From the NCBI GenBank assembly GCA_949710005.1, contig OX453281.1:25708862-25772861 (forward strand): a stretch of DNA of 64,000 nt, written 5' to 3'. The DNA comes from Ricordea florida (taxonomy: Eukaryota > Cnidaria > Anthozoa > Corallimorpharia > Ricordeidae). The position numbers and the translations under genes are program-made. Every line of letters starts with the position of its first letter. The stretch's first letter is position 1. Shown piece by piece: positions 1-64,000 of the stretch. The notes below the pieces were generated by a model that made no database searches, had not been told where the DNA came from, and worked only from the letters and a program-made list of their open reading frames with translations.

Positions 1-55
1 CAAGCTCCAGTTACTCTGTTTTTCCCACATTGTACTCTGTTTCCTTTTTCTTTAG

Positions 56-2576
56 AGACGCATCAAACAGCAGAACAAAGACCATCTTAACTACATGTTC
101 CGAGAACCATTTGCTGCAGGGCATGTGTTCAGTATGAGCATGTTGGATACTCTGCTATACCAAGTAAGGGACGGCCAAATACCATAAATTTTGCTGTCGA
201 TTCTAAGCAGTTCTGTACAGCGATACTGTTTGGTTTAATAAACAGTGTTGTTCTCACTTTTTCATCTGTGGATCAAACCATGCAGCGTGACCATTCTTTG
301 TAAAGCTACTGAACAGTACTGTACTGTGGTACTGTTTATTTTACTATACAGTGTGGCTCTAACGTTTTCATCAGTGGATCAAACCATGCAGTGTGACCAT
401 TCTTTGAAAAGCCACTGAACAGTACTGTACTGTGATACTGTTTGTTTTACTATACAGTGTGGTTCTCACTTTTTCATCTGTGGATCAAACCACGTAGTTT
501 TGCCATTCTTTGGAAAGCTACTGAACAGTACTGTACTGTGGTACAGTGTAGTTCTAACGTTTGTATTTTTAGATCAAACCATGCAGTTTGTTTTACTAAA
601 CAGTGTGACTGGAACATGCTAACATCTCCTTCGTTCCTTGAATGTTTGTTGATATGATTCTCTTCTGGTTTTTTTGTATACAGGCATTTGTTAAGGATTA
701 CATGATTCATTTGATAAGACTTCTCCTTGGTTGTGAACAGACGCCAAATTCTGGATACTTGTGCGCGGTAAGTGGAGAGTGCGTGACATGTTATACTGAT
801 CTTTTGTCTGCGAGTTCATGTAACGCAATGTCTGCTGTAATTTCGCGAGATTATTATGTAAAGTACTAAATCTGTGCTTTGGAATGAAACCGTTTTCTGG
901 CTTGATTCTGTCCGCCAACGGAGTTGGACGGAGGCTATGTTTACACCGGCGTTTGTTTGTTTGTTAGTATGTTAACAGCCTAGCGTCCACATCGCTCAAC
1001 CAATCATCACCAAACTCGGTCAAGACATTGGCTATGGTCTAACTTAGAACTGATTTAATTTTGGGGTATCTAGGTCAAAGATCAAGGTCACGGAAAGACG
1101 AAAAAATCATTATTTCGCAATAAATCGCCCTAGAATCATCATATCAACTTCAAACAAAATCTAAAATGTGCATCTTTCAATTCTGCATCTGCCCTTATGT
1201 CACATGATGCACTAACATTAGTACCCTTGCTAGAGGTAGGGGGGGTCGAATGCGCTGGCTGTGGTCTGCGCTCTCTGAGTGCTCTTGTTGAACCTTGTAT
1301 CCTAAGCAGATGTTGTGTTCAGTTCTTGTGGTCTGTCTGTTTGCCAACTTGTTGTGATGACATTGTAAAGAGAAGCTGCCCCTTTATCAATCCTAGAAAA
1401 GGTTAAAAGTGTATAAGTATACGTTCAGAGTTGTAGTGTCTGTCTCGAATAAGAAACTCAGAACAAGTCTTTTCATTTGTTCTTAAGAAGGTTTGCTCTC
1501 GTTTAGGGCGGCTCAAATACCAAAGACGGTACTTTCCGAGTGTCAGAGTAAAATGAAAACAATAAAAGAAGAGAAATGTACTTTAGGGGCGCTTTCCATT
1601 CAACAAAAATTCCGACCGGTCCGACTGGTCAAAGTGGACCACCTTTAAAGGTAGTCCCGAATATTCCTGTCGGACTAACCCGAAATGGTCCGTTCCTGAA
1701 TTTTGGGTTGAATGGAAAGCCCCCTAGAACACTCGGCGAATTGTTTGTCTTGAAAGAGGATAGGTGAAGTCTGATGTTGTTTTCACCTCCTAAAAGCTTT
1801 GATGTAGCTGACTTCCCATCTCATCCGTAAACACGTCTCTATCAGTGAACAGTTCTGTCTTTACTTTACGAAAGGGAAACGAGTTTGAAAATTATCTTTC
1901 AATATTTTGTTTTGATTAATTGCATGATATTATTACAGAGTCTTTATCTTTGGTATTACGTTCTTAGCAAATATTTTTGGCTCTTTCTTCTTTCGTAATT
2001 ACAAACAGTTTCAATTTTTCTTTGTGCGTTCCCCCCAAAAAAAGATCTGACCTATTTTACTTATTTTCGATTTTATTAATTTTGGCGCAGTTGAAAGTGA
2101 CTGGGGATCATCTGTGGATTGAGACATACGGCAGATTATTCCAGCGACTCTGTTCAACGACTTGTGAGATTCCCATTGGACTGTATCGAAGTCAGATGCA
2201 AGAGGTAACTTGTGCTAGTCATATTAAGCAACTCCTAGCCGAGTCTAATCAGAAACCAGAGCGTTTGCACATGACGTCACGGCAGCCATGTTGGTGTTCC
2301 CAAACAGAGGAAAGGCAGTCATGTTGGTGTCCCAAACTGATCCCCCAGGAATTAAATTCTATTCTCATGCAAACATGTCCTTTTCTTTCCGTTAAAAACA
2401 TGGCCGCTGATCACGTGAGTGAAAAGGCTCTATAGGACTAGAAACGCGTAACGCGCGTTCACAGCTTGTCCAGATTCAATGTTTCGCAAGTGTTAGCTCA
2501 GCTGATAGTGCACCGGACTGCTGTGCGGGAGGTCGTGGGTTCAAATCCTTGATCGGACCAACACTCAGGGTCTTAC

Positions 2577-63958: not shown

Positions 63959-64000
63959 GTACTATATTAAAAACAGTTTTAACCCAATTTTTGTTTCCTT

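Follow-up and report, generated by a model that had tools for sequence, protein, structure and literature searches.

KCNT, MRPS2, RABGAP1 and CRB stand in a row in the Ricordea florida genome that probably reflects an ancestral neighbourhood of the human 9q and 1q regions

The window, that is, the whole stretch of 64,000 nucleotides analysed here, contains four adjoining genes which translations and splice-site models identify as KCNT (Slo2), MRPS2, RABGAP1 and CRB. The 3' end of KCNT (56..4609, + strand; splice-site models and PDB matches) is followed by MRPS2 (10288..15194, - strand; splice-site model, PDB and Pfam), RABGAP1 (17322..36266, + strand; 18-exon model, Pfam and PDB) and CRB (41898..64000 and on to a stop at 69,042, + strand; open reading frames, exon cores and Pfam), the two outer genes of the four each being truncated by a window edge. 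MRPS2 and RABGAP1 are arranged head to head, with 2,127 bases (15195..17321) between their start codons. No further conserved gene was recognised between the four genes, and their adjacency within 64 kb, which a first-pass annotation of the sequence had claimed, is borne out by the gene models together with the PDB and Pfam identities. The assembly comprises 537.8 Mb in 48 contigs; the contig of the window (C10, 30.4 Mb) accounts for 5.65% of it and carries the best genome matches of the RABGAP1, CRB and MRPS2 queries as well as the sole Slo2 locus of the genome.

Only the last five modelled exons of KCNT fall in the window (56-163, 684-767, 2091-2204, 3590-3692 and 4528-4609, + strand), the pore exon (TVGYGDYTP) being located ~23.5 kb left of it and the remainder of the gene also leftward. 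The model covers the 3' exons, with part of the gene beneath a stretch of 5,000 N and the N-terminal exons outside the model. The 163 amino acids encoded by the 3' exons have no Pfam family, and at E values up to 0.001 their PDB matches are KCNT1 chains only (three of three distinct sequences, best 3.6e-49). Among the 55 PDB matches of the pore exon, three KCNT1 chains come on top (1.5e-18 to 2.1e-16); below them rank two-pore K channels (best 8.9e-9) and then BK channels (best 1.2e-4). A PDB KCNT1 chain shares 65 of 97 residues, and the channel gene is, as judged by these comparisons, nearer Slo2 than Slo1 in its pore and C-terminal region. The genome has four BK_channel_a matches: two on C10, ~10-12 kb before the window starts, and a pair on another contig (C5), which we take as the Slo1 locus.

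The three exons of MRPS2 (14954-15194, 14215-14507 and 10288-10755, - strand) encode a Ribosomal_S2 domain (Pfam, 1.5e-46). The best seven of its 109 matched PDB sequences are mitochondrial uS2m (5.2e-64 to 8.5e-61) and bacterial S2 comes next, from 4.3e-32, among the best 60 of the 109; on this protein similarity, MRPS2 is the mitochondrial S2 and neither a bacterial nor a cytosolic one. The exon queries match the genome twice, and both matches are exons of the gene in the window.

RABGAP1 was modelled with 18 exons and 1067 amino acids, in the Pfam domain order PID (PTB), DUF3694 and TBC, with a coiled coil after the TBC domain that was recognised by eye. The TBC domain carries IxxDxxR and YxQ, which we take to be the TBC motifs. 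Its closest PDB matches are RABGAP1L (1.3e-95) and RABGAP1 (1.1e-93), then TBC1D4 (1.4e-45). Out of ten genome matches of the TBC query, six belong to the gene on C10 and the remaining four (C7, C7, C14 and C4) are at most 48% identical. The domain is 66% identical (125/190 residues) to both the RABGAP1 and the RABGAP1L chains of the PDB, which are themselves 84% alike, and 42-43% identical to TBC1D4/TBC1D1. Such an equal distance to two paralogues that are closer to each other is as expected for a pre-duplication orthologue. A six-row tree of TBC domains resolved only the TBC1D4-TBC1D1 branch and left two of its three inner branches unresolved. This orthology comparison covered RABGAP1.

The EGF and LamG exons of CRB begin at 41898 (the gene starts there or earlier) on the + strand, and the gene runs past the end of the window. 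Joined, its exon pieces contain 12 EGF stretches and three Laminin_G_2 stretches (Pfam); the joined query also matches a teneurin EGF model (8.1e-44), as EGF arrays do. The last exon, located outside the window (64528-69042 in window coordinates, + strand), is one open frame with its stop at 69,042. It contains 35 EGF-like pattern matches, with CSSNPCKNM occurring 23 times, and these repeats probably arose by recent internal duplication. A membrane helix is visible by eye in the same open reading frame, and the tail reads YYRKQRNKMSGDYYPSDEEFKGGAFPMTHFVPEKPEKDERLY, with GDYYPS present and ERLY at the C-terminus. For comparison, we take a Crumbs tail to have a juxtamembrane GxYxPS FERM motif and, in bilaterians, a C-terminal ERLI. 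Taken with protein identities near 66% to the PDB chains, the ERLY end would be compatible with a non-bilaterian animal. Even at E values as high as 10 the tail matches nothing in the PDB; it has no Pfam family, and it matches the genome once.

Ten extra open reading frames of the window were also run through Pfam, four located between the four genes and six in CRB introns. Nine of them had no Pfam family, and the sole exception (51935-52399) is a recombinase family match in a CRB intron. It belongs to a tyrosine-recombinase-like recombinase of a mobile element (51104..52399, + strand; Pfam DUF3504 and Phage_integrase) made of two adjoining open reading frames, which is outside the gene block. 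Another CRB intron region (56627-57554, - strand) holds open reading frames that look by eye like helix-turn-helix or transposase proteins and have no Pfam family. Tandem repeats were also observed. A unit of 106-107 bp occurs both within and outside the genes, at 208-544, 3735-4435, 8610-8833 and 23766-24161, with 2.1 to 6.6 copies each and its sameness at the four sites judged by eye, and a 32-bp unit with one consensus forms arrays in a RABGAP1 intron (28338-28631, 9.2 copies) and a CRB intron (43893-44214, 10.1 copies).

Three further genes follow to the right, beyond the stretch that the first-pass annotation could see. The first is a WD40 gene (~86.8-100.6 kb, + strand; open reading frames found by eye) whose Pfam matches are WD40-type propellers only and which we take to be WDR31. 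It is followed by alpha-spectrin (SPTAN1; ~102.5-152 kb, - strand; open reading frames), recognised from its EF-hand end, which matches spectrin alpha (1.5e-36) and then alpha-actinin (5.6e-28) in the PDB and EFhand_Ca_insen (3.9e-27) in Pfam. The third is DHX9 (from 152.7 kb, + strand; open reading frames and PDB), which matches the 'Dosage compensation regulator' (MLE, 4.3e-31) and then RNA helicase A (2.4e-28); in Pfam, the piece searched has dsrm only. The whole row, measured between the KCNT pore exon and a DHX9 exon, spans 187,479 bases (~190 kb). In or beside DHX9, ~165-181 kb right of the first base of the window, we noted by eye a cluster of open reading frames like a family B DNA polymerase and proteins of large elements, resembling a polinton- or virus-like insertion.

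On the other side, no gene of the human 9q/1q regions was recognised in ~150 kb left of KCNT, in an annotation made by eye that is incomplete; as for the flanks in general, genes were perhaps missed, the codon-usage exon finder being too weak. The left flank contains retroelements, Helitron-like and other mobile open reading frames, TNFR-like genes, and chromodomain and CALHM matches that are both sub-threshold. Three TNFR-like genes, recognised by eye, lie near -124, -109 and -85 kb; those at -109 and -85 kb closely resemble each other, and the one run through Pfam had no family. A second DNA-polymerase-like open reading frame was seen by eye at ~-150 to -147 kb, with Helitron-like ones further right.

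At the scale of the chromosome, we located six families of the human regions concerned (PBX, TSC1, torsin, CAMSAP, DZF and DENN), which were of our own choosing and whose human locations are in part assumed. PBX, TSC1 and two torsin loci are on C10, a third torsin locus being on C13; on C10, PBX and TSC1 are located 21-22 Mb from the window and the torsins 2.7 Mb. Thus three of the six analyst-picked families share the contig of the row against an expectation of 5.65% (P = 0.003), and other genes of these human regions are commoner on C10 than expected. TSC2, the only control family, is on C4; the human bands of PBX, TSC1, TSC2 and the torsins are assumed here. CAMSAP is on C5. All ten DENN matches lie off C10 (loci on C9, C4, C4 and C2), the sole DZF_C match is on C9 and DZF_N has no genome match, DENN and DZF matches being taken at family level and not by subfamily. 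Since CAMSAP1, STRBP and DENND1A adjoin genes of the row in human and their families are off C10 here, part of the human neighbourhood is absent from the row; it was either added during vertebrate evolution or moved away in the present lineage.

How does this arrangement compare with human? We take RABGAP1L to be at 1q25, WDR31 at 9q32, SPTAN1 at 9q34.11 and DHX9 at 1q25.3, the pairs RABGAP1-CRB2 and MRPS2-KCNT1 to be roughly 12 Mb apart on 9q, and MRPS2 and RABGAP1 to be far apart. A published 9q33 table gives the order PDCL, RC3H2, ZBTB6, ZBTB26, RABGAP1, GPR21, STRBP, CRB2, DENND1A (PMC4657880), where just GPR21 and STRBP separate RABGAP1 from CRB2, in agreement with the earlier statement that the two are close at 9q33. 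A study of 9q34.13-ter includes MRPS2, groups KCNT1 with CAMSAP1 and UBAC1, and gives OBP2A, PAEP, GLT6D1, LCN9, SOHLH1 and KCNT1 in a single list (PMC5571153), which agrees with the claimed location of KCNT1 and MRPS2 at 9q34. The study also puts MRPS2 and KCNT1 at or near the borders of rearranged fragments (PMC5571153), and their closeness in human is therefore perhaps partly secondary. For the 1q31 area, a deletion list, apparently in map order, contains CDC73, KCNT2, CFH, CFHR1, CFHR5, F13B, ASPM, CRB1 and PTPRC (PMC11942503) and agrees with the claimed proximity of KCNT2 and CRB1. As far as these lists go, the human side has close pairs only and not one tight four-gene block. The first-pass annotation, which had proposed tight linkage of all four genes through to human, was thus overstated, human showing the separate pairs RABGAP1-CRB2 and MRPS2-KCNT1.

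Gene identity, order, loci and contig placement are read directly in the DNA, the human order at RABGAP1-CRB2 and the groupings MRPS2/KCNT1 and KCNT2/CRB1 come from publications, and the ancestry and later splitting of the row are inferred. Because the human pairs overlap (KCNT-CRB at 1q31, RABGAP1-CRB at 9q33 and MRPS2-KCNT at 9q34), they suggest one original row of four, and it is likely that the four genes were neighbours already in the ancestor common to this animal and vertebrates, within a longer row that was later split. This ancestral row would also have included WDR31, SPTAN1 and DHX9, all three of which we take to belong to human 9q or 1q. Its chromosome would correspond to an ancestral group that gave rise, via vertebrate whole-genome duplication, to the 9q33-34, 1q and related 6p21 and 19p13 paralogons. 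The vertebrate copies would each have lost genes and then rearranged, 9q retaining the closeness of RABGAP1 to CRB2 and of KCNT1 to MRPS2, and 1q31 that of KCNT2 to CRB1. The conservation would be owed most likely to slow rearrangement in an unbroken ancestral chromosome, and regulatory constraint on the row is possible. The earlier proposal of a single ancestral block therefore stands in part: the single best loci, the 66/66/84% pattern of RABGAP1, the human pairs, the right-hand neighbours and the presence of PBX, TSC1 and torsin loci on C10 argue for it, whereas the location of CAMSAP, DENN and DZF on other contigs, the split of the block in human and the fragment-border position of MRPS2 and KCNT1 argue against it. 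These considerations concern one animal genome and a window chosen by a reader looking for such patterns.

Alternatively, genes scattered on one ancestral linkage group could have met here, and pairwise in human, by coincidence, which we consider unlikely. The long distances of PBX, TSC1 and the torsins from the window on C10 are compatible with such scattering. The agreement of three neighbours would have a chance probability of ~4e-5 at 3.4% per gene, and of 0.03-0.13 if 30-50% of the genes of the chromosome map to these arms; because both rates are assumptions, the fit of the three neighbours is not decisive. Coincidence is also favoured by gene order within linkage groups, largely scrambled according to two studies (PMC7269912; PMC10719294), and by the perhaps secondary closeness of MRPS2 and KCNT1 in human (PMC5571153). 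Nevertheless, chance requires several independent coincidences, namely RABGAP1-CRB2, MRPS2-KCNT1, KCNT2-CRB1 and the three further neighbours.

A second alternative is that selection on common cis-regulation keeps the row together as a genomic regulatory block, for example through CRB or KCNT elements in RABGAP1 introns. The short head-to-head interval between MRPS2 and RABGAP1 would suit this explanation, but the two genes are presumably far apart in human, and on balance we judge it improbable. Genomic regulatory blocks have been described for some ancient gene pairs (PMC8851819); sea anemones, however, reportedly show poor microsynteny and lack clear TADs (PMC10719294). We regard as quite doubtful the more specific proposal that KCNT-MRPS2-RABGAP1-CRB-WDR31-SPTAN1-DHX9 is an intact pre-duplication block kept by cis-regulation predating the bilaterian CTCF-based architecture, 9q and 1q being its complementary remains. 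Finally, an assembly artefact, in which scaffolding joined unrelated pieces, is hardly credible: a run of 5,000 N adjoins the window on its left, in KCNT, and another of 200 N occupies 56,261-56,460 in CRB, but the former stretch may not be a gap, there is no N at all from the KCNT 3' exons through MRPS2 and RABGAP1 to the start of CRB, and the exons of KCNT and CRB resume beyond their N stretches in the strand and order expected (judged by eye).

If the preferred reading of a row inherited from the common ancestor is true, the seven genes, with all their human counterparts on a single pair of duplicated arms, would fix the ancestral local order for part of the 1q/9q paralogon. They would mark RABGAP1-CRB2, MRPS2-KCNT1 and KCNT2-CRB1 as old human linkages, with CAMSAP1, STRBP and DENND1A beside them as probably later, and the row would provide a concrete locus for asking whether regulation or inertia keeps ancient gene order.

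The closest known system is the MHC-type paralogon of vertebrates (1q / 6p21 / 9q33-34 / 19p13), which has a proto-form in invertebrates and of which PBX is a classic marker. The row involves the same human regions and shares its contig with PBX; unlike the paralogon, it is un-duplicated and spans ~190 kb instead of forming a set of duplicated blocks, and CAMSAP, DENN and DZF have their matches on contigs other than that of the row. A second comparison is with the microsyntenic blocks of the planulozoan and bilaterian ancestors, which likewise keep unrelated neighbours near one another over very long times. In that study, 162 new blocks were inferred for the planulozoan ancestor, shuffled genomes giving 17, 19 or 25, and 84% of the blocks new to the bilaterian ancestor were lost in vertebrates; a block needed at least three genes with up to five intervening genes between each (PMC8851819). 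The row differs from these blocks in that it looks short of the three-gene rule in human, where the published lists have pairs only. With ancestral linkage groups, it shares chromosome-scale linkage with vertebrate arms, and it departs from them, as described in print (PMC7269912, PMC10719294), in that local neighbours appear to be kept. Sea anemones are described as having strong macrosynteny and poor microsynteny (PMC10719294); microsynteny being poor and order scrambled, the row is uncommon, yet of a known type. In the literature searched, no report of it came up, as judged from titles and the beginnings of abstracts. Altogether, the row is a good fresh example of deep synteny in the 1q/9q paralogon, a phenomenon already known.
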